From a virus, in the IMG/VR virus record IMGVR_UViG_3300037264_008483, positions 1-42,869 of that record: 42,869 nucleotides of DNA. The stretch is one strand, 5' to 3'. The notes beneath the pieces are model-generated. The model was not told where the DNA came from, ran no database searches, and saw only the letters and a program-made list of their open reading frames with translations. Below are positions 2,870 through 36,996 of the stretch, in pieces. Numbering within the stretch: position 1 is the stretch's first letter; each line of letters starts with the position of its first letter. The position numbers and the translations under genes were made by a program.

Positions 2870-2909
2870 GGGTTGAGGCTCCAGGTCACCGTGCGCTGGG
2901 GCTTTCGTC

Positions 2910-3002
2910 GATCAACACGGCCAGCCCGAGCACCGCGGTCTGCCCGTTTCGACGTTTCGACGTTTCGGCGTTTCACGTTCGCACCGCCCCGGCCTCGATC
3001 TT
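2910..3002. repeat. 93-bp direct repeat, copy B
   Basis: Near-identical to 2470-2570 but with one 8-bp unit fewer in the internal array. It supplies the last codons of the RuvC-like gene (IEAGAVRT) and a truncated 5' remnant of the dockerin-like gene. Confidence 0.85.
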
Positions 3003-3542
3003 CATCCGTTCGATGGCGAACCGCCCCAGCCCGATGGCGTCGGCCACGTCGGCCCCGCCGTCTTTGGAGATCACTTCGCGATACTGCGGAAACTCCATGG
3101 CCACGGCCATCTGCCGTTTGTTTTTCTGCACGCCGCGGGTCCAGGCGTTCTCTTCCAAGGTCAACACCTCGATCCGCCGGCCCTGACCGCCGATCGGGGC
3201 CCGGGCCGCCGACCACAACGCCCCCACGGCCAGCCCGTAGATCGACAGCCCCGCCCCTCTGCCCAAATGTCGATTGCCCACGTGACCCGAGGGAATCTCG
3301 ATCACGATGTTCCGCGGCATCAGCTCGTGCATCAGCTCGCGCAGATCGACCACCATCTCCGCGATCCGTTCGATTGCCGGGGCCTCGCGCTTGGGGGGCT
3401 GCAAATATCCAGCATCGATCAGCGCGGCGCCGGACGGCGCATCGTGGAACATCTCAAACACCGCGTACCCCGTCCGCGTCGAACTGGGGTCCAGGGCCAA
3501 GAGCTTGACCAGCGTTTCCTCCGGGGCTGTTCGTGTCTTCAT
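2973..3542 (-). CDS. RuvC-like Holliday junction resolvase
   Basis: The 189-residue product has the RNase H-fold pattern of phage RuvC-type endonucleases. The first strand LLALDPSSTRTGYAVFE provides Asp18, the second acidic site is Glu82 in IVIEIPSG, and Asp165 and Asp168 lie in DGGADVADAIGLGRF, as expected for a metal-dependent junction resolvase. It would resolve branched replication or recombination DNA before packaging. The ATG at 3542 overlaps the preceding stop in an ATGA; the upstream TTG is less likely. The final eight residues lie in the duplicated block, so the C-terminus may have been rebuilt by that duplication. The family call is firm; the exact substrate is inferred. Confidence 0.85.
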   Translation of the reverse strand: MKTRTAPEETLVKLLALDPSSTRTGYAVFEMFHDAPSGAALIDAGYLQPPKREAPAIERIAEMVVDLRELMHELMPRNIVIEIPSGHVGNRHLGRGAGLSIYGLAVGALWSAARAPIGGQGRRIEVLTLEENAWTRGVQKNKRQMAVAMEFPQYREVISKDGGADVADAIGLGRFAIERMKIEAGAVRT

Positions 3543-4012
3543 CGTCGTTTCCAAAAGTACGCGAACTTATCGTCGGACCGGGAGGAGAAGTGCTGCTCGT
3601 TGCGTTTCAAATACCCCTTGATTCGGTTTTTCATCGGGGTCCGTTGCGCTTCGACCGCCGGCAGCGGCCACCGGATGCCCTCGTCGTCTTTTAATGCGAG
3701 AAACGCCCCCAGGAATTCGCGCAACACCGGATCGCCGGTCGCTCGGACACACTTTGTCGGCATATTGACCAATCGAATGACCATGAAGGGCACGTTTCCG
3801 GGCGCGATTTCGCGCCCGTCGGGGGCGACAACGGCAGGCGTCCGCCGCGACGCCGCCGCCGCTCCCGTCTTCCGGCCCGCCGGACAGACGTGCCGCTTCA
3901 CGCACCCGGAGCAGCAGCAGAGATCCCCGCAAATCGGGCACGTAATCGCCGACCGCACGGGGACCGAGCCGCCGCACGCGCTGCACGCCCCCATGTCCGC
4001 GCCGCTCACCAT
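3539..4012 (-). CDS. cysteine-rich zinc-finger protein of replication module
   Basis: The product has 157 residues. The N-terminal 45 residues contain nine cysteines (C10, C13, C25, C28, C32-C34, C37, C43) consistent with two small zinc-binding sites. A charged C-terminal half has a basic helix-rich tail (TPMKNRIKGYLKRNEQHF). The ATG at 4012 overlaps the end of the replication gene. Placed between the replication protein and the resolvase, it may act in DNA replication or as a loader-like partner, but this rests only on context. Confidence 0.6.
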   Translation of the reverse strand: MVSGADMGACSACGGSVPVRSAITCPICGDLCCCSGCVKRHVCPAGRKTGAAAASRRTPAVVAPDGREIAPGNVPFMVIRLVNMPTKCVRATGDPVLREFLGAFLALKDDEGIRWPLPAVEAQRTPMKNRIKGYLKRNEQHFSSRSDDKFAYFWKRR

Positions 4013-5016
4013 CCCAATTGCTCCATTTTGCGCCGCCGTCCCTCGTTTTCGTCGGCGATACTGATCACCGCCCGCAGGTCCCGCCGGATCAGGAAGGCGA
4101 ACAGGGCTGCGGGGTTCTGGCCCAGGCGGCCCGCGTGGGCCGCGGCCGCGAAAAACCAATCCACGTCGGCCTCGACGTCGGCCTGGATCAGCCCGCACTC
4201 CGCCGCCCGAGCGAACAGATCGGCGAAACGGTGCCCATCGCCCAGGTCCGCGCTCGCCACGTGAAACCCATCCCACGCCGGCGCCGGCGTGTTTCCATTG
4301 TTTTCAAGCCGCGAGTTTCCGAGCCGCGACCGTAAGGGAGCGGTTGCCCCGTCTCGCGCCCGCGACCGCGTGCGCGCATTGTCTTTAAGACCTGTTATAA
4401 AAACACCACAATCACGAGGACCATGAGATGGTCTATGAGATGGTGGAGTCGCATTTTGCGACTGACCCAGTCGCATTTTGCGACTGACCCAGTCGCACTT
4501 TTCCTCGCCTGCTTGAGTTCGGCGATTTTGGCTTTGCCCTACATCGCCGTCCAGTCCCGGAAACAGGGCCGCCTGGGCCCCGGGTTCGACGGTGTAACGA
4601 ATCAGCCGACCGTCCACGTCGCGCACCAGGCGGGCGTTCTCCCGCGGCACGGCGGCTTGCAGCAGGGCGCCTTGATGCCCCGGCACGCCCCAGGAATTGG
4701 CGATGGTGCGGATCCTGGCCCCGTGCAGGCGGATTTGCCCGCCGCGCCCCAAAAGCACCAGGAACCCCGCCCGGCACAGCTTGGTCACGCTGCGCCAGTA
4801 GGTCGCCTTGTTGACCCCCGCCGCCTCGGCCAACGCAACGCCGCTGCCGAAACACCCAGTCAGCGAGCCGTCTGGGTGCGGCGCATCGCAGCGATCGGCG
4901 ATGGTTTGCAAGATGATCCGGGCCGATTTGGGCATACGCGTCCATGCGTCCGAGCCGGTGATCGACTTCGGAAGATGATTGTGCCAGGCCGTCCGTGGCT
5001 GGGCGTTGCTCTGCAT
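4006..5016 (-). CDS. phage replication initiator-like protein with internal origin
   Basis: The 336-residue product has an N-terminal winged-helix-like region (about residues 28-100; ARIILQTIADRC and AGVNKATYWRSVTKLCRAG) as in phage replication initiators. A low-complexity linker (about 155-255) follows, then a helical C-terminal domain that could contact helicase machinery. The linker is encoded by 22-bp iterons and an AT-rich tract (4379-4500), the arrangement known from lambda O. A host-type repeat (4316-4348) is also translated within the linker. The ATG at 5016 is chosen over an upstream TTG. The replication role is inferred from domain layout, iterons and neighbours. Confidence 0.65.
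   Translation of the reverse strand: MQSNAQPRTAWHNHLPKSITGSDAWTRMPKSARIILQTIADRCDAPHPDGSLTGCFGSGVALAEAAGVNKATYWRSVTKLCRAGFLVLLGRGGQIRLHGARIRTIANSWGVPGHQGALLQAAVPRENARLVRDVDGRLIRYTVEPGAQAALFPGLDGDVGQSQNRRTQAGEEKCDWVSRKMRLGQSQNATPPSHRPSHGPRDCGVFITGLKDNARTRSRARDGATAPLRSRLGNSRLENNGNTPAPAWDGFHVASADLGDGHRFADLFARAAECGLIQADVEADVDWFFAAAAHAGRLGQNPAALFAFLIRRDLRAVISIADENEGRRRKMEQLGW
4316..4348. repeat. CCGAGCC...GCGGTTGCC element inside the replication gene
   Basis: A 33-bp copy of the dispersed element (TTTCCGAGCCGCGACCG, then GGGAGCGGTTGCC). It is read in frame by the replication gene as part of the linker, so the insertion has not broken the gene. Confidence 0.85.
4379..4500. other. candidate replication origin: AT-rich tract plus iterons
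   Basis: Bases 4379-4420 are clearly AT-richer than the surroundings. Next come two copies of ATGAGATGGT (4423-4432 and 4435-4444), then two perfect tandem 22-bp repeats (4447-4468 and 4469-4490) and a partial third. Each 22-bp unit contains the inverted repeat GTCGCATTTTGCGAC. An unwinding tract beside iterons within the initiator gene is the classical lambda-type origin layout. Confidence 0.65.
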
Positions 5017-5054: not shown

Positions 5055-5146
5055 CGGTTCCTAACTGAACGACGCGCCGCCCAACCCGGTTCGTCGTGAC
5101 GCGGAACTGAATAGCACCTTCGCGACGCTCATGGTTCCGCCATCCA

Positions 5147-5353
5147 CTATCGCACCGCCTGCAAGCTCCCGTCTGCTAAGGCCGCGAAAGCGTTCTGGTA
5201 CTCGGCAAAATCCTGCAAATCTACCGTCGCACACTCGCCGTTCAGCGGATGCCAGTCGGAAACGAGGGCACACTCCTTATCGCTTTGCACGGTCGGGCCA
5301 CAGAGGGCGGAGGCGAACACGGACCAGAGGATGAGAGTCTCGTGGAGGATCAT
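5147..5353 (-). CDS. small putative secreted protein, dockerin-like tail
   Basis: A 68-residue protein with an N-terminal hydrophobic segment (ETLILWSVFASALCG) that looks like a signal peptide. The mature part has two cysteines and ends in DLQDFAEYQNAFAAL, which resembles the second half of dockerin-type domains (DLxDFAxYQxxF) common in planctomycete secreted proteins. It sits between the replication gene and another secreted protein. The ribosome-binding site is weak. Likely host-derived; function unknown. Confidence 0.5.
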   Translation of the reverse strand: MILHETLILWSVFASALCGPTVQSDKECALVSDWHPLNGECATVDLQDFAEYQNAFAALADGSLQAVR

Positions 5354-6020: not shown

Positions 6021-6058
6021 TTGCGATCTCCTAAAAAAAAGTTAGACGAATCACAAAT

Positions 6059-6133
6059 TGGCGGGGGCTGGACTCGAACCAGCGACCTTCGGATTATGAG
6101 TCCGACGAGCTATCAAAACTGCTCCACCCCGCT
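6059..6133 (-). tRNA. initiator-type tRNA-Met (anticodon CAT)
   Basis: The minus strand folds into a full cloverleaf: seven-base acceptor AGCGGGG with CCCCGCC, D stem GAGC/GCTC, anticodon stem TCGGA/TCCGA with loop CTCATAA, and T arm GCTGG-TTCGAGT-CCAGC. It carries initiator hallmarks: an unpaired 1-72 position (A1 opposite C72) and A11-U24 in the D stem. The anticodon stem has two of the three usual G-C pairs plus A31-U39. The D loop (AGTTTTGATA) lacks the usual GG. No CCA is encoded. The close match to bacterial tRNA-fMet makes the identity convincing; functionality is less certain because of the D-loop changes. Confidence 0.85.
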
Positions 6134-6140
6134 ACCTTTT

Positions 6141-7065: not shown

Positions 7066-7623
7066 TCACGGAGTCCCCAGCACGATCGCCGCGGCCAGCA
7101 GCCCGACTGCTACGATCGTTCCCGCGACGATCCAATCGCCGCAGCAAAGACGGCGGGCGGCGTGTTCGGAAGCGCCGCCCGCCGCGTTGGCGCAGCCCGC
7201 CGTTGGGACTGTCCGGCGAGCAGGAAAGAAGCTCTCATAATCCCCCTGCCCGAAGCGGCAGAGGGGAAACGTCGAAACGGATGTGCCACTGCTCGGTGAG
7301 CAGTGACTTTGCTCTTCGGGCGATTCGTGCAGGTTGTACGCCTCTTTCCGAGCCGTCCTTGACACAACCGTGTCAAGGATGAGGGAGCGGTTGCCTCTTT
7401 GCTCTTCGGGCGACTCGTTCAGGCTGCACGACAATCGACGCCGCGGGCCCGCAGTCATCGCCCGCACCCGTTGGCGCAGCTCCGCCGCCCCGGTCAGCCC
7501 GGCGCGGACCCGCAGGTCGGCGAGCCTTCTCCCGGAGACTTCTGACGCATGGACTCGCGGCCGCCCCGGTGCCACATTGTGGCACCGAGATTGTATGTTA
7601 TGTCGTACTCGATTATCGGACAT
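7066..7623 (-). CDS. putative membrane-anchored protein interrupted by a repeat insertion
   Basis: About 185 residues from the ATG at 7623. The N-terminal half is basic. The middle is translated from a dispersed hairpin element (7345-7397) flanked by two copies of a 34-base segment (7309-7342 and 7399-7432), giving two ESPEEQ motifs. The C-terminus has one membrane helix (WIVAGTIVAVGLLAAAIVLG). It overlaps the preceding repressor-like gene by 11 bases and is coupled to the next. The repeat content suggests a hybrid or decaying gene; perhaps only the C-terminal anchor region is original. Confidence 0.4.
   Translation of the reverse strand: MSDNRVRHNIQSRCHNVAPGRPRVHASEVSGRRLADLRVRAGLTGAAELRQRVRAMTAGPRRRLSCSLNESPEEQRGNRSLILDTVVSRTARKEAYNLHESPEEQSHCSPSSGTSVSTFPLCRFGQGDYESFFPARRTVPTAGCANAAGGASEHAARRLCCGDWIVAGTIVAVGLLAAAIVLGTP
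7345..7397. repeat. CCGAGCC element with 10-bp hairpin core
   Basis: The element contains TCCTTGACAC-AACC-GTGTCAAGGA, a perfect 10-bp stem with a 4-base loop, between the CCGAGCCG and AGGGAGCGGTTGCC ends. It sits in the frame of the membrane-anchored protein. Confidence 0.85.
7598..7621. repeat. 24-bp direct repeat, copy 1
   Basis: Identical to 8292-8315. It contains TCGTACTCGATTATCGGAC with a CGAT-T-ATCG dyad. The two copies bracket the repressor-like gene, the divergent promoters and the first plus-strand gene. Confidence 0.85.
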
Positions 7624-8315: not shown

Positions 8316-9157
8316 GGTTGCGTTTACGCCGCCCCCCAATTGCACGTGACGCGCGGCGGCATGGGTCGCCACCATCGTCGAGACGGCGGGCGGTATCGGC
8401 CGCACAAATGATCGCTGGCGCCCTCCTCTGGCTACTGCTCACGATGTTCGCTCTCTACCGCGGCCATGAAGTGGCCCGCCGGAACGCCGCCGAGGCCGTC
8501 GAGGCCCGCAGGCAACTGACGTTCGCGGAAGACCGTGAGATGGCCGCGACTCAGCCTCCAGAACTTCCGCCCAATCCCTACGCCATCGCACAGCCCGATC
8601 TCGCCGATCCGGCATCGCCTGATCTTGATCCGATCTTTCTGTCCGACGCCATCGCCGGCGCCGCGGACGGCGTGCCACGCACGCTCTGCGATGAGGACGA
8701 TTCCTGCCTGAAGTACGTCACGCTCTTGAAGGCCGGAACTATGATCCTCAGCGGCGCCAAGCGCCATCGGGCGGTCACCCAGGCCGTGGCCGTGCGGCTC
8801 TCCGACGCATGGCGAGACGCCTGGGCACGGCAGGGCTTCGAGGATCAGACCACGCACCGCCTCTGGTCAATCGTGCTGACCGCTACGCCCGATGAACGGT
8901 TCGCCGCCGCGGTCTGTCATCGGGCATTGGAAGGGGCCTACAACGTCGCCCGCGACAAAACCCTGCGCGCCGAGATCCGCGATCGGTTCAACGAGCAGGC
9001 CCTACAGCGTTGGACGGATGCGATGAGCGTCCGCCAGCCGCACAATCCATATCCCGACCCCAGTCGGCCGACGCTGAGGGTCCATGATTCATCCTCGACG
9101 CCGGCGCTCGAGCAGATGCCGGAGTGGGATTGGTCCTCAAACCATGGCTCGCCGTGA
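8294..9157 (+). CDS. single-pass membrane protein, unknown function
   Basis: The product has 287 residues. After a basic N-terminus it has one membrane helix (MIAGALLWLLLTMFALYRG, about residues 39-57), then a long soluble region with helical character and two cysteines (LCDEDDSC). The ATG at 8294 is preceded by AAGG; a shorter form could start at 8408. It is one of only two plus-strand genes and runs convergently into the end of the 9137-9895 gene, overlapping it by about 20 bases. It may be a lysogeny-expressed envelope protein such as an exclusion factor, but only its position and membrane anchor suggest this. Confidence 0.65.
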   Translation: MSYSIIGRLRLRRPPIARDARRHGSPPSSRRRAVSAAQMIAGALLWLLLTMFALYRGHEVARRNAAEAVEARRQLTFAEDREMAATQPPELPPNPYAIAQPDLADPASPDLDPIFLSDAIAGAADGVPRTLCDEDDSCLKYVTLLKAGTMILSGAKRHRAVTQAVAVRLSDAWRDAWARQGFEDQTTHRLWSIVLTATPDERFAAAVCHRALEGAYNVARDKTLRAEIRDRFNEQALQRWTDAMSVRQPHNPYPDPSRPTLRVHDSSSTPALEQMPEWDWSSNHGSP

Positions 9158-11238: not shown

Positions 11239-11268
11239 TTTTCGACGTTTCGACGTTTCGACGTTTCA
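11239..11268. repeat. octamer array at a gene junction
   Basis: Three to four GAAACGTC units (minus-strand sense) start at the stop codon of the large tail-tip gene and precede the start of the next gene. Confidence 0.85.
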
Positions 11269-13275
11269 TCGCGCGAAGCCGGCCCGGATGATCGTCCTGG
11301 GCTCTCTGCCCATCATCCATTCCACCGCCGTGATCGGGGCGTTGATGTCGATCGCGTCGCTGACCCCGGCCTCGACCACCGTCAGGATCCGTCCGATCAG
11401 CCCGCCCGCGGCCTGCAAACCCACGATCTCCACGTCCGCCCGGGCCCGGCTCGAGGCATAGCGGGCGATGGCCCCGGCCATGATCAGATACATCCGAGCG
11501 GCGTCGTTGCGCAGGGTCAACTGGTGCGTGGTCGGGGTCCGCAAAAACTGCCCCTCGTTGTTGACCCCCAACACCGTGTCCGGGGCGGCGAACCACAGCT
11601 CGGCATCGGTGTCGATCACCAGCTCTCCGTCCGAGGGCCGCCAGTGGGGCTCCTCGTAGACCAGCTCCAGCCGATGATCGGTCTCGAAGGCCATGGTCAT
11701 CACCAGATCGTCATACGAGTAGAGGGGCTGCTTCTCCGACACCGCCGCCCCAAAGTGGCCCACGGCCAGCAGGTGATTGGGCGACCCGTTCACCACCAGG
11801 CCCCATTCCTGCTGCATCGCCCGCAGCGCAAAGCCGATCTGGTCGCAGGCCAGGTAATGACCCTCTTCGTCCTTCAGCCAGGCTTGCGGGCCGATGAATT
11901 CGCCCGAGGCCCCGGGATCATTGCGGTCCAGCGGCGGGTCCGTGGTGTAATCGAAGCCCTCGCGAAACGGCAGCCAGGACAGCGTCCGTCGCACCGTGTT
12001 CTGATATTGCGGGTCCGCCGGGGTTTCGGTTGTGAAAAAGTTCCCCTCGTTATCCAGCGCGGGAAACGCCAGGAAGTCGTTGAACTCCCAATCGGCCGGG
12101 GCCCCAAAGAACTGAAAGACGGGGTTGAACCGATCCGCCAATCGGGCCTTGTCGTTGGCCACGCCATCCTCGAGGTCCAGCCCCAGGTACTCATCCTGCA
12201 GCACCTGCGGCCACTTCTTGACCAGACTCCCATCCGCGGCGGACAGCGAACAACAGGCCACCACCCGCCGCCCGACGATGCGAATGCGTTTGTAGCGCTG
12301 ATCGTTGCTGCGGATGATCTTGGTGACCACGTTGCTATCCTGCGTGTCGGCCGCGATGCGGATCTCCTGCCCATTGAACGGGAAACTCACCCCCCCAAAC
12401 GCGGTCTGTTTCGCCGCCAGCGAAAACACCGCCACCTCGAAGCCCTCGCCGACCCCGTCCGCATCGCCCGGGAGGTACGCGATCCGGTAATCGACCCCGA
12501 TGTCCGGGGAGATGATCCGCCCCAGCACCGTCGCGACGCTGTCCCCGACCTCCATATCCACCAGGTCCTTGGCCCCTTGCAGCAGCACCGCCTGCCCGGC
12601 CAGCACCCAGAGCGGGCCCACCGGGTCGTACACCGGATCGGTGGTGTCCGGGTCCTCGATCGTCTCGTCGGCGAAGCGCTCCAGGAGATACGTGGCCATG
12701 TCGAAACGGCTCCACAGCTCCCGGCCCCCGAAGGTGTACGTGCCGTTGGTCGCGGCGACGCTGCGATTCCCCGCCAGGAAGCGATCGTCCTCGCTGTTGA
12801 AGCTCGGCACCCAACCGATCCGGGTGTTTTTCAGCAACGGCGCGATCGGTGGCCACACGCTGTTGCCGATGTTCATCCGCTGCAACAGTCGCAGCGGCTC
12901 CGAGGCCACCCACGTCTGCCGGCCGCTGGGCGTGGTCGAACTCGCCTGAACATCGCGGGCCTCGGCCAAAACGCGCCCGATCCACACGATCTGAGTGAAA
13001 TACAGCCGGACCCGCACCCAGTAGTCCAACAGGTTCAGCGGCGGCGCCGCCGCGATGGGCGACTGATACGGCTGGCTGACCTCCGGCCCGTAACGCCTCT
13101 TGACCTCCAGCTCGCCGATTTGCTGCGACGTGCCCCACGACAGCCGCACGATCTCCAGATCGTCCGCCGTCCGCCAGGGGTCCGACCACAGCCGCTTGAT
13201 CTCCACCCGCGGCACGGCCATGACGTCCACGCCGCTGAACGGCCCCGGCCCCCCGATGATCGTGATTCCAGCCAA
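11266..13275 (-). CDS. large tail-tip or baseplate hub-like protein
   Basis: About 669 residues, the largest product of the distal tail module. The N-terminus describes an oriented beta domain (VPRVEIKRLWSDPWRTADDLEIVRLSWG) like the first hub domain of siphovirus tail-tip proteins, and a long mixed region follows. The TTG at 13275 is preferred because AAGGAGG lies eight bases upstream; an ATG further upstream would fall inside the octamer array. Position after the tape measure and small tail proteins suits a hub or adsorption protein. No enzymatic motif is seen. Confidence 0.55.
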   Translation of the reverse strand: MAGITIIGGPGPFSGVDVMAVPRVEIKRLWSDPWRTADDLEIVRLSWGTSQQIGELEVKRRYGPEVSQPYQSPIAAAPPLNLLDYWVRVRLYFTQIVWIGRVLAEARDVQASSTTPSGRQTWVASEPLRLLQRMNIGNSVWPPIAPLLKNTRIGWVPSFNSEDDRFLAGNRSVAATNGTYTFGGRELWSRFDMATYLLERFADETIEDPDTTDPVYDPVGPLWVLAGQAVLLQGAKDLVDMEVGDSVATVLGRIISPDIGVDYRIAYLPGDADGVGEGFEVAVFSLAAKQTAFGGVSFPFNGQEIRIAADTQDSNVVTKIIRSNDQRYKRIRIVGRRVVACCSLSAADGSLVKKWPQVLQDEYLGLDLEDGVANDKARLADRFNPVFQFFGAPADWEFNDFLAFPALDNEGNFFTTETPADPQYQNTVRRTLSWLPFREGFDYTTDPPLDRNDPGASGEFIGPQAWLKDEEGHYLACDQIGFALRAMQQEWGLVVNGSPNHLLAVGHFGAAVSEKQPLYSYDDLVMTMAFETDHRLELVYEEPHWRPSDGELVIDTDAELWFAAPDTVLGVNNEGQFLRTPTTHQLTLRNDAARMYLIMAGAIARYASSRARADVEIVGLQAAGGLIGRILTVVEAGVSDAIDINAPITAVEWMMGREPRTIIRAGFAR

Positions 13276-13296: not shown

Positions 13297-13439
13297 GAAA
13301 CGTCGAAACGTCAAAACGTCAAAACGTCGAAACGTCGAAACGTCGAAACGTCGAAACGTCGAAAGAAAAAACTCGACGGGCGACGGGGGCGCAGCCCCGT
13401 CGCGTCCTTTGTTTTGACGTTTCGACGTTTCGACGTTTG
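13297..13439. repeat. nested inverted octamer arrays with inner hairpin
   Basis: About eight GAAACGTC-type units (13297-13364) face about three and a half inverted units (13411-13439). Between them GCGACGGGG and CCCCGTCGC form a 9-bp inner stem. The transcript between the LamG gene and the hub-like gene could fold into one long two-tier hairpin. Confidence 0.85.
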
Positions 13440-13443
13440 CTGT

Positions 13444-15138
13444 TCATCCTGGTATCGCGTCCGAATCCACCGGCGCCGTCGGCCCCACCGCGTCCGCCGT
13501 GGTCGAAAGGACCGTCGAATCCTCCGAATACACCGTGCCCGCCCGCCGGGCCTGCACCCGCACCTTGATGGTCAGCCCGTGGGCGAAAGGCCCGATGTCC
13601 AGCTCGAGCACTTCCAAAGCCCCCTCGCCCATGGCCTTGGTCGTGGTCGGCGCGCCCGCCGGCGGGTCCACCCCGTTGCTGGTGTAGCCGATGGCCCATT
13701 CCGTGGCCCGCAGGGCGTCGGTCTGAGCGTAACTGGCCGCGATCCGCACCACGCCCCCGGCCCGTTGCTCGAGCCGCACGGCGTACGGCCCGTTGGGCGG
13801 GTTGCCCGTCTCCACCCCGCCGGCGATGTCCAGGCGCAGGGCCGTCTCCCCGTTGGGCCCCACCGGCAGGAAACCGCTGTCGATCAGGCCGTTGAAATAG
13901 CTCAGCGAGAACCAATGGATGCCGTTGCCGAAGAGGTCGCCGGGCGTGAAGGGCAGCGCCGCCGCCGTGGCGAACGGCGTGTCCGTCTCCAAGGGCGGCC
14001 CGGTGATGGAATGATAGGCCCGATATTCGGCCGTGCCGAAGATGTTGAACGAGGTCCGCAGCATCGACCGCCTTCGCACCAGCGCCGGAGTGGCGTTCAC
14101 GCCCTGGCCACTGAGGACCCGGACCCCGCGGCCCCGATCGGCCTTGATCTTGCGCTTTCGTCGTTTCGTCTGACTGCGAATGATCCGGGCGATCTTGGGC
14201 ACCGTGACGATGGGCAGCGCGGCGTTGAAGACCCGCGACCGGCGCCGTTTGCGAACCGGCCGCTCCAGCGGCGAGCGAATCTGTCCAAAAGACATGATCA
14301 GTTCATCTCCATAATCGGCCATCTCCGCTCGACGAAACGGGGCGGCGATGTCCTCGGCCAGGATCAGCACCTCTTCAGCGCCCAGCGCCCGGTTCCACAC
14401 CAGCATCCCGGCGATCCAGATGCCGGACCCTACGTCCAAACCCGTGGCCCGCGAGCCATTGATGACGGTGAACGATTCAGGTTGGGTCGCTACCACGGTC
14501 CCGGCGTTGTCGTCTACTTCGATCGGCAGGCCGTTGATATACAGGGTGGTGTTGGTTTCGCTGATCGGCTCCGCGGTGAGCACCCAGGTCAGGTTGAACC
14601 ACTCATTCAGCGGAACGGGTGTGCCGACAGGCACAACCCACGACGACAGAAGGAAAGGATCGAGACTGCCGGAGTTGCAAGCGTGGACGCTAGGGAAGTC
14701 ACTCGATGGGTTCAGCAGGAAGATCATGCCGCGCACGGTTCCGGCGCTCGGAGGGAACGCCGGAGTGCGCGAGCAGCCCGTGAAAAGCCAAATCGTGACT
14801 GCCCCATCCCAGTAGGCCATGACCGAGAAGGTCATCGGCGGCGAGACCTTCCATTTGCCGGCTATGGGACCAGACTGAAAGTACATCGTCGCGTTGTTGG
14901 CGACCGGCGACGCCGTGTTGGTTCCCCAGGCCCATCCCAGCGGTGAGAATCGAAAGTCTTGATATTGCGGCTGGAAGATCGTGACGGGAAAAATCGGCGA
15001 GACCGGATCGTACGTGTCACTGATCCCGGTCAGGCAGGGCATGATGCCGCCCACCAGCCCGTGCCACAGCCCCGGATACGCCGATTCGCCGCCGGCGCGG
15101 GCGTGCATCCCGTAGGGAATGGGGGGGGCCATAATCAC
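13444..15138 (-). CDS. LamG-domain tail fibre or surface protein
   Basis: The product has 564 residues. The N-terminal half (about residues 85-270) matches a laminin-G/concanavalin-A-like lectin: PPMTFSVMAYWDG, LNEWFNLTWVLT, TLYINGLPIEVDD and AGMLVWNRALGAEEVLIL are the characteristic strands. A basic patch follows (VRKRRRSRV and TKRRKRKIKADRGRG). The C-terminal part is beta-rich and may include a fibronectin-like module. This suits glycan binding on the host. The GTG at 15138 follows the GGGAGCGAAGCGACGC leader seen before many genes. Confidence 0.75.
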   Translation of the reverse strand: MIMAPPIPYGMHARAGGESAYPGLWHGLVGGIMPCLTGISDTYDPVSPIFPVTIFQPQYQDFRFSPLGWAWGTNTASPVANNATMYFQSGPIAGKWKVSPPMTFSVMAYWDGAVTIWLFTGCSRTPAFPPSAGTVRGMIFLLNPSSDFPSVHACNSGSLDPFLLSSWVVPVGTPVPLNEWFNLTWVLTAEPISETNTTLYINGLPIEVDDNAGTVVATQPESFTVINGSRATGLDVGSGIWIAGMLVWNRALGAEEVLILAEDIAAPFRRAEMADYGDELIMSFGQIRSPLERPVRKRRRSRVFNAALPIVTVPKIARIIRSQTKRRKRKIKADRGRGVRVLSGQGVNATPALVRRRSMLRTSFNIFGTAEYRAYHSITGPPLETDTPFATAAALPFTPGDLFGNGIHWFSLSYFNGLIDSGFLPVGPNGETALRLDIAGGVETGNPPNGPYAVRLEQRAGGVVRIAASYAQTDALRATEWAIGYTSNGVDPPAGAPTTTKAMGEGALEVLELDIGPFAHGLTIKVRVQARRAGTVYSEDSTVLSTTADAVGPTAPVDSDAIPG

Positions 15139-16019: not shown

Positions 16020-16090
16020 GCTCCGCGAGAGTCGTGAGTGATGAGTGGTGAGTCGTGACACCTTCACTTCGCCACTACTCGCCACCGCCA
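16020..16090. repeat. GAGTGGTGAGTC-type spacer repeats
   Basis: The junction holds short repeats in both senses (GTGAGTGATGAGTGGTGAGT, then ACTACTCGCCACCGCC), another member of the ACTCGCC spacer family. Confidence 0.65.
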
Positions 16091-17096: not shown

Positions 17097-17190
17097 AAAC
17101 GTCCAAACGTCGAAACGTCGAAACGTCGAAACAAAAACGCCAGGAGCCCGCCCGATTCGTTGTTTCGACGTTTCGACGTTTTGACGTTTT
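17097..17190. repeat. inverted octamer arrays at a gene junction
   Basis: About four units (17097-17132) face about three inverted units (17162-17190), separated by roughly 30 bases. The arms could pair in the transcript between the two genes. Confidence 0.8.
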
Positions 17191-17205: not shown

Positions 17206-17877
17206 CTACCCTCCGTCCCAGCTAAAGTGAATCACGATGGGCACGTCCGGCGTGGGCGGCGGCGTCGGCGCAGCGCTCACCACGATCTTCGTGAAAATCG
17301 AATCTATCGCGTTCACCGCCAGAGTGGCACTCAAGGTGATCGCCGTCTCCTCCGTGATCGGCGTGGTGAACGGGCCGGCGACGTTGTCCCCAATGGAGAT
17401 GTATTGGACTGCCGGATCCACCCAGGCCCGCACTCTGATCAGCGCTTGCGTGCTGATGTTTTTGAAGTAATTTTGCCAGACCTCCGAATACGGCGAGGGG
17501 GTCGTGGCCTCGGACCGTTTGACCCGGCCTTGCCTATGGCGCAATCGGACCGTGGTGCTGCGTTCGCCGACCGGCAGATACGCCGCATACGAGGTCACGA
17601 TCAAATAGTTGTTGAAGTCCTCACCGATGATCTGGTACTGCCCGCCGGCCGATACGTCGACCTCCGGACCGAAATCGATCGAGCCCGGCGCCCGCCAGGA
17701 GAGCAACGCCCCGCCGCGGATGCGGAGATGCCCAATGCCGTCCCCGTTGCGATCGCACGCGTAATTGACCGCGATCCCCGGCAGCGTCCCGCTGCTGAAC
17801 ATGAGCGGTTCGGATACCTGCTCGACTGGCGGCGTGAGGAAACGCAAAGCGTCCGCCCCTTGTCCGACCACCGACAT
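17206..17877 (-). CDS. tail structural protein
   Basis: A 223-residue beta-rich protein. Segments such as GIAVNYACDRNGDGIGHLRIRG and GGQYQIIGEDFNNYLIVTSYA suggest immunoglobulin-like or beta-sandwich folding, with a proline-rich stretch near the C-terminus (AAPTPPPTPDVP). The ATG at 17877 is preceded by GGAGCGAAACGACG, a variant of the shared leader. The position in the distal tail operon points to a virion component; no specific family is assigned. Confidence 0.55.
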   Translation of the reverse strand: MSVVGQGADALRFLTPPVEQVSEPLMFSSGTLPGIAVNYACDRNGDGIGHLRIRGGALLSWRAPGSIDFGPEVDVSAGGQYQIIGEDFNNYLIVTSYAAYLPVGERSTTVRLRHRQGRVKRSEATTPSPYSEVWQNYFKNISTQALIRVRAWVDPAVQYISIGDNVAGPFTTPITEETAITLSATLAVNAIDSIFTKIVVSAAPTPPPTPDVPIVIHFSWDGG

Positions 17878-18465: not shown

Positions 18466-18570
18466 AAACGTCAAAACGTCGAAACGTCAAAACGACAAAT
18501 CGCCGAGCGGCCGCTGCGACGCAGTCGCAGCGAATCCCCTTGTTTCGACGTTTTGACGTTTCGACGTTTC
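18466..18570. repeat. nested inverted octamer arrays with inner hairpin
   Basis: Arms of GAAACGTC-type units (18466-18496 and 18542-18570) face each other around an inner stem GCTGCGAC-GCA-GTCGCAGC (8 bp). The upstream gene ends at the start of one arm and the downstream gene begins at the other. Confidence 0.85.
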
Positions 18571-18937
18571 ATTGTCTCTTGAGCACCGCCACCCGCCGCT
18601 CGCCGCGGATGGCGTCGACGATCCCGTAGGCCAGATGGGCGGCGGAAAACCTCGGCTCGCCCATCTCCTGCACCAGCATGTTGGTGTGCGAATCGCCCAG
18701 ATCGTCCACCACGGTCACGATCGTGCCTTGCAGGGCCTCCACCGCCGTGAACCAGGCGGTCACCGTGGCTCTCGTGCCAAAGCGGATCAGCAGCAGCTCC
18801 GTGCCGCGGTTGCCCCGCCCTTGGGTCATAACCCCGGTGCCGTCCAGGCCCAGCACCTCCCAGACCTCGACCCTTTTGCGCAGCCCGCTGGGCCGCCCGC
18901 GCATGATGTCCACCGTGATCCCGCCGATCGCCGCCAT
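18569..18937 (-). CDS. small tail protein
   Basis: A 122-residue protein in the slot after the tape measure gene that usually holds distal tail components. Predicted beta strands (ITVDIMRG, TELLLIRFGTRATVTAW, GTIVTVVDDLG) dominate. The ATG at 18937 carries the GGAGCGGTAGCGACGC leader. A distal tail or tail-completion role is inferred from gene order. Confidence 0.55.
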   Translation of the reverse strand: MAAIGGITVDIMRGRPSGLRKRVEVWEVLGLDGTGVMTQGRGNRGTELLLIRFGTRATVTAWFTAVEALQGTIVTVVDDLGDSHTNMLVQEMGEPRFSAAHLAYGIVDAIRGERRVAVLKRQ

Positions 18938-18953: not shown

Positions 18954-19079
18954 GAAACGTCAAAACGTCGAAACGTCAAAACGTCGAAACGTCGAAACAA
19001 GAACGGCGGCACGAAGTGCCGTCGTGTTGCTTCGTCTTGTTCGTTTTGACGTTTCGACGTTTTGACGTTTCGACGTTTC
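18954..19079. repeat. nested inverted octamer arrays with inner hairpin
   Basis: About five units on each side (18954-18998 and 19042-19079) surround an inner stem (GGCGGCAC-GAA-GTGCCGTC with one wobble). It fills the junction after the tape measure gene. Confidence 0.85.
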
Positions 19080-20612
19080 TCATCTGTCCTTCCCCGCCGG
19101 CACGCCGACCGCCCCGCCGATCATCCTCCGCGTCGCGTCCTTCAGCTCTCGGGCCACCTCCATCAGCGCCGCCGCCGCCCCGGCCATCGAATCATTGATC
19201 CGCGTGCCCTTGCGCGTTCCCGCCGGCGGCGCCGGCGGACCGATTTCTCCGCTCTCTGCCGCCCCCAGTCCGCCTTCCCCAAAGCGAACTTCTTCCATCG
19301 CCTGGCGCAGCCGTCGCCCTCGCGGAACAGATTCGACCGGCGGCTGCATCGCGATGAACAGCATCTCATCTATGATCGTGGACCGGCCCTGTTCGTCGAT
19401 GAGATCGAACATTCCAAAGGGTCCGGTGGTCTCATGGCCCATCTTTCGCAGAGCCATTCCGCGGATCAGCTCGGTAACGCCTTGTCGCTCGGATTTTTCA
19501 GAAGAAGGGCCGAACGCCTTCTCCTGGAGGTGCATCGCCTCCAGGATGGCGCTCTCCCTGGCGAACCGCGCCATCGGCAGCTCCGCCTCGATCCCCGCCC
19601 GCTGGCCGGCGAAAACGTCCCCCGCGGCCCGCCGGGGGATCTCGGCCATGTATTCGCCCATCATCCGCAGATTGTTCCCCGACAGCAGCGTCACCAGGGC
19701 CTTGGTCTCGCGGATCTCCTGCAAGCCCATGGCCCCCAGCTCCTCGGCGGTGTCCACGCCCCTCTCTTTGAGCACCACCGCCTTCTGAAACTGGCTGAGT
19801 CCCGGCCCGGCGCCCATCTTGGCCAGCGACTCGCGGAACTTGTCCGCCGCCTGCGACGACAGGGCGATGCCCGCGGCCTTGGTGTACACGCCCAGCTCTT
19901 CCGTGGGCACGGAGCCGGAGATCACCGTCGACGCGGCGATGCCCGCCATCTTGTCCACCCAAAAGGCCAGGGCCGGCGCCGCCTTGACCAGCGTCTCCGG
20001 CTCTCGGGGAGAGATTTGCCCAGCCACGAACAGGTTCTTGAGCAGCTCCCCCGGAGCCATCCCGAAGGAGGTTCCAAAAACCTCGGCCTCCTGCCCGAAC
20101 TGGATGGGCACCCCCACCTGCGACGCCGCGAATACGTCTGCCGCCCCTTTGAGCGCCGCGGCCAGGTTTCCGCCGCGCGCCGATTGCAAGGTTTGCACCA
20201 CGTTGAAGGCCGCGCCCCGATCGGCGATGCCGTAGCTCACCGCCAATTTGGAGGCCAGTTCCACCGCCTTGGCCCGTTCTCCGCCGGCCTGAATCGAGGC
20301 CAGGGTCACCAGCTCGTTGGCCGCCTTGCGCGTCTCGGCCCCAAACTCTCGGGTATTCTTCAACAGGTTGTCGTATCCTTTGGTCGCCGCCGCCATGATC
20401 GCCGTGAAGGACACAAACCCCGCCGCGTACGAGGCCAGGGATCCGGCCGCCTGACCGAACCCATCCTCCATGGTGGCGCTGGTCTGCTTGGCCTCGCTGC
20501 GGGCGTCGCGCAGCGATTTGTTCAGCTCGTCCACCTTGGACTTCAGTCGGGCGATGCCGCCCAGGGCCTTCAGCTCGTCGGAGGTCATTTCGATGGCAAG
20601 TTGCAGGGCCAC
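19080..20612 (-). CDS. tail tape measure protein
   Basis: The product has 510 residues. An N-terminal coiled-coil (ALGGIARLKSKVDELNKSLRDARSEAKQ, about residues 16-43) and small-residue-rich helices (ASYAAGFVSFTAIMAAATKG) are typical of tape measure proteins, as is its place right after the predicted frameshifted chaperone gene. Its length predicts a rather short tail (roughly 75 nm or less if about 1.5 angstrom per residue). The GTG at 20612 lies just after the frameshift product stop, with GGAG six bases upstream. Confidence 0.75.
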   Translation of the reverse strand: MALQLAIEMTSDELKALGGIARLKSKVDELNKSLRDARSEAKQTSATMEDGFGQAAGSLASYAAGFVSFTAIMAAATKGYDNLLKNTREFGAETRKAANELVTLASIQAGGERAKAVELASKLAVSYGIADRGAAFNVVQTLQSARGGNLAAALKGAADVFAASQVGVPIQFGQEAEVFGTSFGMAPGELLKNLFVAGQISPREPETLVKAAPALAFWVDKMAGIAASTVISGSVPTEELGVYTKAAGIALSSQAADKFRESLAKMGAGPGLSQFQKAVVLKERGVDTAEELGAMGLQEIRETKALVTLLSGNNLRMMGEYMAEIPRRAAGDVFAGQRAGIEAELPMARFARESAILEAMHLQEKAFGPSSEKSERQGVTELIRGMALRKMGHETTGPFGMFDLIDEQGRSTIIDEMLFIAMQPPVESVPRGRRLRQAMEEVRFGEGGLGAAESGEIGPPAPPAGTRKGTRINDSMAGAAAALMEVARELKDATRRMIGGAVGVPAGKDR

Positions 20613-20624: not shown

Positions 20625-21598
20625 TTATCGTTTGATGATCACCGGCACCGCGACGATGGGTTCCCTGTCCCGCTCGTGCATTCCCATCGCCGCCGCCGCC
20701 GCGTCGGCCATCGTCGGCCGGTATCCGGGGAGCCTTGCGCTCGCCCAGCTCACGAAGATCAGCCAGCGGGCGTCAAGACAGCGGCCGTTTTTTTTTCCAG
20801 CCACTGGCAGAACGTCGGCCAGTCCACCGCGGCATTGAGCACGTCCGCGGCGGCAGCGCCGTTCAGCAGCCCAAGCATCGCCGTTTCCACCGGGCCGATT
20901 GCGTAATTGGCCGCCAGCACGGCGACCGCCGCGCCCAAGCCGTCGTCAAAGTTCAGCTCCACCCGCCGTTTCGACGTTTCGACGTTCGCCTTTGCAGCTT
21001 CTTCGCTCCCCGCCCGCACCAGCTCATCCCACCAGGCCGCGGCCACCCGCGAAAGTTCGGCGTAGGCCGGCAACACCGCCCCTGGCTTCCAAACGCCGTC
21101 GTCGCCCAGGTCCGCCTGGCGGGGCAGACGCGGGGTCCAGCCCTCAGCCCCGTCGACGCTGACCCAGGCCCGTACCGCCGGGATCCGCCATTCGTTCCCG
21201 TCGCCCAGCTTGACCGCCGTGCCCGGGAGAGCGTCCGCCCGGATCAGGTCCGCCGGACCCGGCGGTTGCCCCTTGACGTGGCCGACCCAGACCGCGGCCG
21301 AATCGTCGCTCGACATTTCCGAGCCGCGATCGTTAGGGAGCGGTTGCGCAAGTAGATTCTCCGGGATCCTCCTCCAGACCTGCTTCTCCGGATAATGCCC
21401 GACGTCGACGCCCGCCGTGCGCCGGGTGTCGCCCACGATCAGGCCGCCGCCGCCGTCCGGGCCGTGCTGACAACAGACTCGCTCCAGGCTGGCCTTTGGC
21501 CCGAAGGCATAATTCAGCCCGCACGCGCGCACAGCGCTGCGCACCGGCTCCACGCCGCTGTCCGTCACCCCCGCGATGTAATAGAGAAATCCGGCCAT
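20625..21598 (-). CDS. predicted -1 frameshift product of the tail assembly chaperone
   Basis: If ribosomes slip back one base on the A9 run (20788-20796), reading continues in the -1 frame for about 54 codons (GRCLDARWLIFVSWASARLP onward) to a stop 13 bases before the tape measure start, giving about 324 residues. The extension is protein-like and conserved spacing matches the G/GT arrangement of lambda and many siphoviruses. No other feature explains this open frame. Confidence 0.65.
20759..21598 (-). CDS. tail assembly chaperone, zero-frame product
   Basis: The product has 279 residues. It lies immediately upstream of the tape measure gene and ends shortly after a slippery A9 run, as expected for the short form of a lambda G-like chaperone. 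Two spacer repeats are translated within it: PLPNDRGSE from a CCGAGCC element (21316-21347) and NVETSKRR from an octamer run (20978-20997). The ATG at 21598 follows an octamer array and an A-rich stretch with no Shine-Dalgarno motif. The C-terminal helix-rich part (AAVAVLAANYAIGPVETAML) leads into the slippery site. Confidence 0.65.
   Translation of the reverse strand: MAGFLYYIAGVTDSGVEPVRSAVRACGLNYAFGPKASLERVCCQHGPDGGGGLIVGDTRRTAGVDVGHYPEKQVWRRIPENLLAQPLPNDRGSEMSSDDSAAVWVGHVKGQPPGPADLIRADALPGTAVKLGDGNEWRIPAVRAWVSVDGAEGWTPRLPRQADLGDDGVWKPGAVLPAYAELSRVAAAWWDELVRAGSEEAAKANVETSKRRVELNFDDGLGAAVAVLAANYAIGPVETAMLGLLNGAAAADVLNAAVDWPTFCQWLEKKTAAVLTPAG
20788..20796 (-). other. slippery A9 run for -1 frameshifting
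   Basis: The minus strand reads G GAA AAA AAA ACG, so A AAA AAA is in the correct phase for tandem slippage of both tRNAs. It lies 29 bases before the zero-frame stop and directly precedes an open -1 frame reaching almost to the tape measure start. Confidence 0.65.
20978..20997. repeat. octamer run inside a coding region
   Basis: Two and a half octamer units are read in frame as NVETSKRR within the tail assembly chaperone gene. Confidence 0.75.
21316..21347. repeat. CCGAGCC element inside a coding region
   Basis: TTTCCGAGCCGCGATCG followed by GGGAGCGGTTGC is read in frame as QPLPNDRGSE in the tail assembly chaperone gene. Confidence 0.8.
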
Positions 21599-21604: not shown

Positions 21605-21641
21605 TTTTCGACGTTTCGACGTTTTGACGTTTCGACGTTTC
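21605..21641. repeat. octamer array at a gene junction
   Basis: About four and a half units lie between the stop of the tail tube-like gene and the start of the chaperone gene, ending six bases from the start codon. Confidence 0.85.
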
Positions 21642-23063: not shown

Positions 23064-23093
23064 CGTTTCGACGTTTCGACGTTTTGACGTTTC
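23064..23093. repeat. octamer array at a gene junction
   Basis: About three and a half units lie between the stop of the HK97-gp10-like gene and the leader of the next gene. Confidence 0.85.
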
Positions 23094-23620: not shown

Positions 23621-23657
23621 GTTTCGACGTTTTGACGTTTTGACGTTTCGACGTTTC
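23621..23657. repeat. octamer array at a gene junction
   Basis: About four and a half units begin at the TGA of the upstream gene. Confidence 0.85.
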
Positions 23658-24186
23658 ATCCGCTGGTCCCCCAGGCAATCTCGAGGTCCGCGATCTCGTG
23701 ATCGCCCATCGTCTCCCGTTCTTCCTCGTCGGAGAGCCCAAACCCCGCCAGGGTGAAGCTCTCGATCCGCAGATACGAGTCCACGGCCCCGGCCTGATTG
23801 CTCAGACTTCGCAGCTCCCCCTCGATGGCCCCGATGAGATCGAGGAACCCCGTCAGCCGCGCCGACGGGCTGTTCAGGTCCGCGGCCGGCGTGTTCCGTT
23901 CCAGGGCCAGCCACAGCCGCCCGCTCTCCTCGTACGTTTCCGTCGCCGTCCAGCGCGACACGTAACCGCGCTCGCGCACCGTGCCGACGATGGCGAACGG
24001 CCGCAACCCTTGCAGCTCGTCCAGGGCGTGGGTCGCGTCGTTGTCCGGCGTGGGCAGAGCGTACAGGTGGATCCGGGCCAGGGCCTGCGTACGATCGGTG
24101 GCCCCGACCATGCCGCGAAACGTGGCGCAGTCCGCCAGCGTGATCCGCAGGTTCTCCTCCGCCGCTCTGATCGCCCCAGTCGCCAA
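23656..24186 (-). CDS. putative head-tail or tail terminator protein
   Basis: A 176-residue alpha/beta protein (helix AIRAAEENLRITLADCATF, strands RPFAIVGTVRERGYVSRW, GRLWLALERN) placed where tail terminator (gpU-like) proteins are usually found. The TTG at 24186 is preceded by GGAGTGAAGATC. The C-terminal IADLEIAWG is a typical final strand. Function inferred from gene order. Confidence 0.5.
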   Translation of the reverse strand: MATGAIRAAEENLRITLADCATFRGMVGATDRTQALARIHLYALPTPDNDATHALDELQGLRPFAIVGTVRERGYVSRWTATETYEESGRLWLALERNTPAADLNSPSARLTGFLDLIGAIEGELRSLSNQAGAVDSYLRIESFTLAGFGLSDEEERETMGDHEIADLEIAWGTSG

Positions 24187-24728: not shown

Positions 24729-24741
24729 CAAACGTCGAAAC
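24729..24741. repeat. short octamer remnant
   Basis: AAACGTCGAAACC, one and a half units, precedes the leader of the 24713 gene. It may be a contracted array. Confidence 0.6.
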
Positions 24742-25859: not shown

Positions 25860-26837
25860 CTACGCGGTGACGGCGGTCAAACGGTGACCGGCCTCCTTGT
25901 AGTAGATCAGTTCCTGGGTCTGGTGCCGCACGCGCACGATCTCGCCGCGCACCGGCTCATCGCGGTAGGTCTCGATGGCCCCGCCGATGTCCGCCCCGTC
26001 CTCGTTGTAAAACAGGGTCCGCCCGATGCACGGCTCGCGGATGTCATCGGTGACAGCCACCCGGGCCACCATGGCCTGGGTCTTGTCCCACACGCTGGCG
26101 ATGGTCACCGCCTGGCCTTCGTTGGCCGTGTCCTTGGGCGTACCCGCGATGATGACCATGTCCACGTCAAAGCACTGGGCGAGCTGCTGAGCGGTGATGT
26201 CCCGCGCCCGCACTCGATCGCCGGCCCCTTGAGCGGCCACCCGATCGATCACCTGCTGGCACTGGATCGCGGCCCGGAACGCCTGCCGGTCCAGGATCAC
26301 GGCATTGGGCCACAGCCCGGATGCGTTCCAGACCGCCTGCGCGGCAGCCATGACGTTGGTGATCGGCACTCCGGTGCCGAACGTGGTCCAGGGAATAGCC
26401 ACCGCCGAGGTCTGAGCGCCGGCGAAGGTGGTAGCGTTGAACACCGCCGCCGCCGCCCGGGCCTCCTGGGAGCGCAGCACCATCGATCGGGCCCGCTCCG
26501 TGCCGATCAGCTCGGCGTCGAAGTAATCGCTGTAGATCTGGGCCTCGTTGTCGTCGAGGACCTCTTCGTAGCCGTTCTCCAGACAGGCAAAAGCCTGTTG
26601 CGTGAAGGTGAACCGCCCGCGGGCGTACCCGGAACCAGGCGATCGTTTGGTGTCCGGGGTCTGTAACAGTTGCTTGATGGGGACGATGCCGAAAGTGCCC
26701 GCGGGCTTGGCCACCGATTTGGCCGGCAGCACCCGGGTGGCGATCAGTCCCATCATTTGCGACGCCAGATCCCAGGCCAGCATCGATCCGGCCAACACCG
26801 GCCGGAGCGTGGTCAGGGCAGCAGATGGATGAGCCAT
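25860..26837 (-). CDS. major capsid protein (HK97 fold)
   Basis: A 325-residue protein similar to lambda-gpE-type major capsid proteins: an N-terminal arm (PVLAGSMLAWDLASQMMGLIATRVLP), a central helix region (FDAELIGTERARSMVLRSQEARAAAAV), the spine and A-domain stretch (AAQAVWNASGLWPNAVILDRQAFRAAI), and a C-terminal P/A region (DDIREPCIGRTLFYNEDG). AAGGAGGTTCGAT directly before the ATG at 26837 is the strongest ribosome-binding site in the window, as expected for the most abundant virion protein. Confidence 0.85.
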   Translation of the reverse strand: MAHPSAALTTLRPVLAGSMLAWDLASQMMGLIATRVLPAKSVAKPAGTFGIVPIKQLLQTPDTKRSPGSGYARGRFTFTQQAFACLENGYEEVLDDNEAQIYSDYFDAELIGTERARSMVLRSQEARAAAAVFNATTFAGAQTSAVAIPWTTFGTGVPITNVMAAAQAVWNASGLWPNAVILDRQAFRAAIQCQQVIDRVAAQGAGDRVRARDITAQQLAQCFDVDMVIIAGTPKDTANEGQAVTIASVWDKTQAMVARVAVTDDIREPCIGRTLFYNEDGADIGGAIETYRDEPVRGEIVRVRHQTQELIYYKEAGHRLTAVTA

Positions 26838-26873: not shown

Positions 26874-26924
26874 GTCTTTGTTTTTCGTTTTCGTTGACTT
26901 ACGTTTCGTTTTCCGGCCCGCGAG

Positions 26925-26977
26925 TTTTCCGAGCCGTCCTTGACACAACCGTGTCAAGGATCAGGGAGCGGTTGCCT
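26925..26977. repeat. CCGAGCC element with 10-bp hairpin core
   Basis: A full copy with TCCTTGACAC-AACC-GTGTCAAGGA, located between the second DUF2190-type gene and the capsid gene. Confidence 0.85.
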
Positions 26978-26991
26978 CCTGAACGCGCTGT

Positions 26992-27401: not shown

Positions 27402-27464
27402 TCGTTTCGACGTTTCGACGTTTCGACGTTTCGACGTTTCGACGTTTCGACGTTTCGACGTTTC
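27402..27464. repeat. longest uninterrupted octamer array (7.6 units)
   Basis: Seven identical GTTTCGAC units plus a partial unit (27404-27464) separate the two DUF2190-type paralogues. It is unpaired: no inverted partner is nearby. Confidence 0.9.
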
Positions 27465-27840: not shown

Positions 27841-27906
27841 TTACGCTCCTCGTCTTTCGCCTCGTTTACGCTCCTCGTCTTTCGCCACTCGCCACTCGCC
27901 ACTCGT
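27841..27906. repeat. tandem 24-bp repeat and CACTCGC array
   Basis: GTTTACGCTCCTCGTCTTTC is present twice in tandem (roughly 27840-27886), followed by CGCCACTCGCCACTCGCCAC. The first copy supplies the GAGGAG site of the adjacent gene. Confidence 0.75.
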
Positions 27907-27908: not shown

Positions 27909-28391
27909 CTACGCCACCGCCCGCACCCGCCCGAACTTGGCGTTGTGCGACGCCTCGTAGCGCTCGGCTAACGCCGGATCGCGCTTGGCCACGGCCTTCA
28001 CCGCCTCGTGACGCTTCTTGCCCCGCTTCTCCTCGGCGGCCACGGCCTCCTCGAAGTCGGCCGCGGCGTCACCGCTGTCGCTGCCGGCGCCAGGGCCGCC
28101 AGCCGGCACCGCGGGCACTCCGACGCCCTTCTTGCCCGCCTCCTGGGCCTTGGCCGCGTTCGCCTGGGCCTGTGCGGCTTCCGTCTTGGCCGCGGCGGCA
28201 GCGGCGGCGAGGGCCTTGTTCTGCTCGCGAAGCTCGACCATCCAGCGGTCTTTGGCCTCGGCGAGCGTAAGCCCGCTCTCCTGACACTTCTCCCGAAAAT
28301 CAGCCGTGCTGTCCGGCAGCGCTGCCTTCAGCTCGACGATAGTTGCGGCCTTTTTCTCCGCGGCCGCCGGCGTTTCCGTCGTTGTGCTCAT
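27909..28391 (-). CDS. nested scaffold protein (internal start)
   Basis: An in-frame ATG at codon 305 of the S49 protease gene is preceded by AAAGGAAGTGGCG, an excellent internal ribosome-binding site. The resulting 160-residue product is alanine- and charge-rich and largely helical (RWMVELREQNKALAAAAAAAK), like lambda Nu3, which is made the same way from inside gene C. Confidence 0.75.
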   Translation of the reverse strand: MSTTTETPAAAEKKAATIVELKAALPDSTADFREKCQESGLTLAEAKDRWMVELREQNKALAAAAAAAKTEAAQAQANAAKAQEAGKKGVGVPAVPAGGPGAGSDSGDAAADFEEAVAAEEKRGKKRHEAVKAVAKRDPALAERYEASHNAKFGRVRAVA

Positions 28392-30916: not shown

Positions 30917-31038
30917 CAAAACGTCAAAACGTCGAAACGTCGAAACGTCGAAATGAAAGCAGGGGCGCAGGGCCGAATGGGGCGAAGCCCCCGCGTCGTT
31001 GTTTTGACGTTTCGACGTTTTGACGTTTTGACGTTTCA
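30917..31038. repeat. nested inverted octamer arrays with inner hairpin
   Basis: About four and a half units face about four inverted units around an inner GGGGC-GAA-GCCCC stem. It lies between the small head protein gene and the portal gene. Confidence 0.85.
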
Positions 31039-31439: not shown

Positions 31440-31650
31440 TTTTTTCCGAGCCGCGTTTTTTCCGAGCCGCGACCGTCAGGGAGCGGTTGCCTCGATCAAC
31501 GCCGGGAGTTTTTCGGAGCCGCCGCCTTTCCGAGCCGCGACCGTCAGGGAGCGGTTGCCTCGATCAACGCCGGGAGTTTTCCGAGCCGCGCCTTTCCGAG
31601 CCGTCCTTGACACAACCGTGTCAAGGATCAGGGAGCGGTTGCCTCGATCA
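31440..31650. repeat. three tandem CCGAGCC elements
   Basis: Three complete copies, the last with a TCCTTGACAC hairpin core, fill the junction. The first two are separated by CGATCAACGCCGGGAG, itself repeated. The last copy provides the stop and final codons (EATAP) of the ASCH-domain gene. Confidence 0.85.
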
Positions 31651-32754: not shown

Positions 32755-32819
32755 GGTGATAGCGGTGAGTGCGGAGTGGCGAGTGGCGAGTGGGGAGAGA
32801 GTCGGCCCCGCCGATTTCG

Positions 32820-33385: not shown

Positions 33386-33398
33386 GCGACGATCCCTC

Positions 33399-36984: not shown

Positions 36985-36996
36985 TCGCCCCACTCC

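Follow-up and report, generated by a model that had tools for sequence, protein, structure and literature searches.

The hairpins between the genes of this phage probably arise where two independent polar octamer arrays share one junction; the arrays would be intergenic repeats of a Planctomycetota type, and the fold mostly a by-product of their meeting. The stretch of DNA analysed here (the window) is an IMG/VR virus record of 42,869 bases. It carries recognisable tailed-phage genes, all on the minus strand, including a GpA-type terminase (37380-39560), a lambda-family portal (29300-30901), an S49 head protease (27909-29303) and a major head protein (25860-26837), as well as a minus-strand tRNA-Met (6058-6134). 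Gene boundaries were taken from a purpose-written caller that uses amino-acid composition, not from a standard gene caller; it called all window genes minus, consistent with the strand of the tRNA and of the matches to phage proteins. Thus, the junctions are to be read on the minus strand, and all arms, stops and starts below are given in that sense. Located near the GpA terminase are also a DUF5131 protein (PF07505, E 9e-82; 35581-36678), an N6/N4 DNA methylase (PF01555; 39544-40524) and a HerA-like ATPase (40521-42617) with a further match to a terminase PHROG. An Rfam scan of the window returned only the tRNA above the gathering score and no known RNA family at the elements described below.

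The first-pass annotation had described opposing octamer arms around an inner stem at five places, and the arms and the inner stems that it quoted are present at all five, with each element spanning the junction between one gene's stop and the start of the gene that follows. Specifically, in the first element the 5' arm, a sense AAACGTC array (13411-13438), lies 5 nt past the stop of gene 13444-15138, the inner spacer (13365-13410) holds the stem GCGACGGGG/CCCCGTCGC with a fold z of -2.5, and the 3' arm, a sense GACGTTT array (13297-13364), lies 21 nt ahead of a TTG at 13275 with an AAGGAGG present. The second element has a 5' arm (17162-17189) 16 nt past the stop of gene 17206-17877 and a 3' arm (17097-17132) 16 nt ahead of the start at 17080; it had been called the weaker one, and rightly so, as it contains no significant inner stem (z +0.7). 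In the third, the 5' arm (18542-18569) overlaps the stop (TGAAACGTC) of gene 18569-18937, the spacer (18494-18541; z -1.6) forms the stem GCTGCGAC/GTCGCAGC, and the 3' arm (18466-18493) ends one base ahead of the ATG at 18464, the gene caller having chosen a later start for this downstream gene. The fourth begins with a 5' arm (19043-19078) 1 nt past the stop of gene 19080-20612, continues with a GGCAC-TTC-GTGCC stem in its spacer (18999-19042; z -1.8) and ends with a 3' arm (18954-18998) that is 16 nt ahead of the ATG at 18937, the leader being GGAGCGGTAGCGACGC. Finally, the fifth element separates gene 31036-31362, which sits in a head-tail connector-like position, from the portal gene: its 5' arm (31001-31036) overlaps the stop (TGAAACGTC), its spacer (30954-31000; z -1.7) holds GGGGGC/GCCCC stems, and its 3' arm (30918-30953) lies 16 nt ahead of the portal start GTG at 30901, with the leader GGAGCGATAGCGACGC. 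Arm lengths range from 28 to 68 nt across the elements. A search pattern for facing arrays gave five matches in the window, which cover three of the five elements, and zero matches in shuffled sequence.

The unit that makes up these arms is a polar tandem octamer, AAACGTC[G/A]. In gene sense the 5' arm reads (AAACGTC[G/A])n and starts at the upstream stop (at -1, -1, 1, 5 and 16 nt in the five elements), and the 3' arm is the reverse complement, which ends 16, 16, 16 or 21 nt before the start codon or abuts the ATG at 18464. AAACGTC therefore reads outward from coding sequence on both sides. Because both arrays read away from coding sequence, paired arrays always face each other, with a long intercistronic stem-loop as the result.

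Arrays are not limited to hairpins, a point that the first-pass annotation had missed: further junctions contain a single array, mostly at or near the upstream stop, and a hairpin occurs only at junctions holding both. Six junctions have a stop-side array only, located -1 to 5 nt from the stop. These are 21606-21640, which fills its junction from 1 nt past the stop to 7 nt ahead of an ATG; 23621-23656, which overlaps the stop (TGAAACGTC) of gene 23656-24186; 23065-23092, 3 nt past a stop; 27404-27463, the longest single array with 7.5 units, 5 nt past a stop; 11240-11266, which overlaps the stop of gene 11266-13275; and 2946-2971 at the stop of gene 2973-3554, which recurs together with its flanks at 2507-2541. 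One junction has a start-side array only, a short sense GACGTTT array (24730-24741) that lies 16 nt ahead of the ATG at 24713 with the leader GGAGCGTAGCGACGC. Overall, of the ten clearly stop-anchored arrays in the window, nine begin between -1 and +5 nt relative to the stop and the tenth at 16 nt, and on the start side four arrays end 16 nt before the start, one ends at 21 nt and one abuts the ATG. The 16-nt leader, GGAGCG-TAGCGACGC, is a repeated module in its own right. One array (29321-29357), at the portal frame's 3' end, and another (20968-20986), inside a frame, show that the outward rule is not absolute. Array heads favour one phase, with 12 of 19 starting at the first A and 6 more starting two bases earlier, and 18 of the 19 arrays end in AAA, AAAC or AAACG. 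The preferred head phase is not explained by simple slippage and counts against our best explanation. We also considered a special status for the octamer with a G linker, which is stop-free in all six frames, and rejected it as ~46% of octamers are stop-free too. Two further features of the window involve gene junctions and gaps: a junction with its array and ~40 nt of sequence to either side is present in duplicate at 2465-2573 and 2905-3005 with 93% identity, and a perfect inverted repeat of 21 bp, with 4 nt in its loop (CCGCGAGTTGCACCCGACCGC), is located at 2111-2156, in a gap (2080-2166) that folds at z -7.7.

We propose that a first array, (AAACGTC[G/A])n in the sense direction, would start at the stop of the upstream gene and that a second array, its reverse complement, would end just upstream of the ribosome-binding leader of the next gene. 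Both would be drawn from one family of short tandem repeats between genes that is common to the phage and Planctomycetota, and the arrays of this family probably expand, contract and get copied between junctions. They would be tolerated between a stop and a ribosome-binding site because nothing essential is interrupted there.

When folded in the gene-sense (minus) direction against shuffled controls, the five junction RNAs gave energies of -51.8 to -76.6 kcal/mol (z -6.1 to -8.8) that no shuffle equalled. The fold is far from chance, and the two-tier RNA structure predicted earlier is borne out as a two-tier hairpin. Most of its stability comes from the outer arms and not from the inner spacers, and the outer arms pair because both copy one octamer. 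The first-pass annotation had gone further and read the differing inner stems as selection for structure. A two-tier intercistronic RNA fold that is selected for stabilising mRNA or controlling the ratios of structural genes would be in keeping with the strong predicted folds, with junctions that lie within a structural operon and with at least two Planctomycetota loci that have a stop-hairpin-start layout around different inner sequences. However, the G/A linkers are not partner-specific, since linker pairing is 0.87 with an arm's own partner versus 0.89 with the arms of other elements (from few units), and the inner spacers do not stand out from other gaps, with a mean z of -1.32 as compared to -1.23 for other array-free intergenic pieces (Mann-Whitney p 0.16). 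Both of these classes are more structured than coding pieces (mean z +0.1). At many array junctions, moreover, there is just one array and the hairpin is missing, as it also is from the homologous connector/portal junction of relatives. The claim of selection is left unsupported, and we regard a selected fold as unlikely. Taken together, the linker comparison, the ordinary spacers and the bare junction in relatives indicate that the fold most plausibly follows from two arrays facing each other. The GC-rich stems found in four of the five inner spacers count against this explanation. A mild effect of the predicted fold on the messages is plausible; the likeliest would be mild insulation, in which upstream 3' ends are protected and cistrons are kept separate, and the ribosome-binding leader would stay free in most cases.

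The same GC-rich inner stems, one of which is followed by a T-rich sense-strand stretch (GAGTTTTTTC, 13365-13374), are what transcription terminators or attenuators between the structural genes would be expected to show. Several observations argue that this role is very unlikely. Terminator-like sites in the region number 17 versus 15.1 expected from shuffles, which is no excess, most of the sites inside the elements are antisense with only two weak ones on the sense strand, and the outer 3' arm reads GACGTTT and has no U-run. Termination within a one-strand structural operon would also come at considerable cost.

Homologous junctions in other phages provide a second view of the hairpins. The closest syntenic phage records have ~35-57% protein identity, a distance at which recent junction evolution is not traceable. 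The 30918-31036 hairpin of the window lies at the connector/portal junction; at this junction one relative (L009) has a bare TAAATG, another (L064) has TAACGATG, that is TAA-CG-ATG, and a third (L055) has a short gap of ~23 nt. A further relative (L052) has portal and S49 genes with a 4-base overlap, and in L064 the gene pair homologous to 23656/23605 likewise overlaps by 4. The hairpin-free homologous junctions indicate that the hairpin is lineage-specific and dispensable for gene order. Neither compensatory change nor a conserved fold was found in relatives, a comparison of low power given the few units and the distance of these phages. The record that contains both L009 and L010 does have three single arrays, two of which overlap stop codons, and one such stop-overlapping array, in L010, is at a junction homologous to window 23621-23656. 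Other junctions in L010 are filled soon after stops by a different repeat, ATTCGAGTCCCCCACCCCTACAAGGGATGGGGCACCC, which could form a hairpin (1606-1703, 3453-3561, 3907-4129, 5057-5271 and 9062-9110). The facing-array pattern was found in none of the other IMG/VR contigs scanned, and a looser single-array pattern matched ten stretches of viral contigs with no facing pair in those that were read. INPHARED phages gave no DNA-level match, and patterns for the major capsid protein (MCP) and a tail-region protein retrieved no relatives from IMG/VR, where a terminase pattern did find some.

The octamer is shared with Planctomycetota. A scan of GTDB contigs with a 26-mer returned 30 stretches, 29 of them from Planctomycetota and one from Oleiagrimonas. 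The phage has 12 matches to a 20-mer in 43 kb versus 3 to 17 per genome in nine host genomes of 3.5-9.3 Mb (counted in the hosts as overlapping matches). We found no specific report of octamer repeats in Planctomycetes in a literature search. Host arrays are mostly intergenic (49 of 55 distinct arrays), and they obey the polarity seen in the phage: on the AAACGTC side 16 of 41 lie no more than 6 nt from an ORF edge (a stop for 14 of these 16), versus 0 of 44 on the opposite side. Had the arrays been placed uniformly in these gaps, some of which are on short contigs, 1.7 would be expected near an edge, and 20,000 simulations gave 7 at most. Tolerance alone would not account for such strict anchoring to stops in hosts whose gaps run to hundreds of bases; this counts against our explanation and indicates some mechanism or selection for position. 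Facing arrays are also present in several hosts. In one locus (L069) a TAA is fused to four units, followed by a spacer, inverted units and an ATG three bases on, and a second (L070) has a similar, more degenerate stop-array and array-start layout. The strict facing-array pattern matched 0 of 294 Planctomycetota genomes, and a looser one, run on genomes that carry arrays, did find facing arrays, whose arms are more degenerate; the opposite, back-to-back order gave only 4 single-octamer matches and no arrays. Two Thermoguttaceae genomes had many single-octamer matches, which resemble coding noise and were left out of the counts. A facing octamer pair also occurs within a 6.4-kb open frame of a Phycisphaerae genome (L034, 5915-6040). 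Planctomycetota are the likely hosts of the phage.

Dispersed copies at gene junctions with an inverted organisation also recall a mobile palindromic element of the REP, REPIN or MITE type that is inserted as a unit, and REP families are known in Planctomycetes (PMC3733652). REP, BIME and REPIN sequences, including CGTC-tagged REPs, are extragenic palindromes that often form inverted pairs, and the palindromic core of a REP measures 20-40 bp and bears a GTAG or CGTC tag (PMC3733652). In contrast, the octamer unit is not such a palindrome and its pairing comes from two facing tandem arrays. No tagged conserved core of the REP/REPIN type was found in the elements, as the inner spacers differ, look unrelated by eye and share no flanking core. 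The spread in arm length and single arrays as frequent as pairs further make insertion as a unit very improbable. Among the window proteins scanned with Pfam, which covered part of the ORFs, there was no RAYT transposase. We give the least credence to recombination linkers, in which identical junction arrays would serve as short homologies for gene exchange between phages and host prophages, and consider this highly improbable: arrays do occur outside coding frames at many junctions, one junction is duplicated together with its array and an array is present at one homologous junction in a relative, but no exchange event between genomes was found and inverted arms would promote inversions too.

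Two independent polar arrays remain our preferred reading, and outward polarity extends to repeats with other words. Five of six other tandem arrays in the window (6-7-nt units, oriented by the purine-rich strand) point outward from an ORF edge that is no more than 20 nt away, the edge being a stop in four cases and a start in one, and among non-octamer arrays at the host loci six obey the rule and one breaks it, in what are small numbers. GAGTGGC-like heptamer arrays (27882-27905, 32960-33034, 35273-35317, 36951-36989, 32774-32797 and 16029-16058) mostly start at a stop on the sense strand or lie ~20 nt before a start on the antisense strand, and so share the polarity of the octamer. A repeat of the form TTTCCGAGCCG...GAGGGAGCGGTTGC (7339-7397, 26920-26978, 31587-31645 and 33329-33387) has a hairpin (TCCTTGACAC...GTGTCAAGGA) in place of the usual middle CGACCGT, and looks like a second, nested intergenic repeat family.

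A similar architecture is known from GGGAATC heptamer arrays in two Xanthomonas strains and the related repeat GGGGA(T/C)T in Nostoc, the function of which was left open (Rehm et al. 2015; PMC4692102). Those arrays are mostly intergenic, with the sense strand adjoining or overlapping stops and the antisense strand adjoining starts; the two Xanthomonas genomes have 70 and 75 convergent inverted pairs that could form stem-loops, and none of the arrays is on a plasmid (PMC4692102). The phage and host octamer likewise is a short, mostly intergenic tandem unit that is sense after stops and antisense before starts, and its inverted pairs are convergent. Unlike the Xanthomonas heptamers, it has 8 nt, its arrays vary in length and show no preference for four units, it occurs in Planctomycetota and densely in a phage, and several of its pairs enclose a GC-rich inner stem. 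As AAACGTC[G/A] has no G-run, it would not form a quadruplex. Judged from sequence, the octamer arrays share the GGGAATC architecture with a new word and would fall outside the quadruplex family. Mazel et al. in 1990 reportedly described the cyanobacterial STRR, or heptanucleotide repeats, as short tandem units of unknown function (cited in PMC4692102); these resemble the octamer in being short tandem units and differ from it in their words.

Outward polarity, a preferred array head at ORF edges, pairs that are exclusively convergent and a shared polarity among unrelated words (the octamer, the heptamers of this phage and of the hosts, and GGGAATC of Xanthomonas) would all be accounted for if one undescribed process added templated short repeats to 3' ends that arise at gene boundaries, a process that phages undergo or exploit. 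We think such a process quite unlikely, and the same holds for the suggestion that it would be telomerase-like or reverse-transcriptase-based.

Boundary-anchored polar repeats have so far been described for G-quadruplex heptamers. That an octamer without a G-run follows this rule, in a different phylum and in a phage of that phylum, indicates that position and polarity are not set by quadruplex formation. The octamer further suggests that the phage has a Planctomycetota host. With ~20 arrays in 43 kb, the phage offers a compact setting for studying the origin of such arrays and any effects that they may have on expression.
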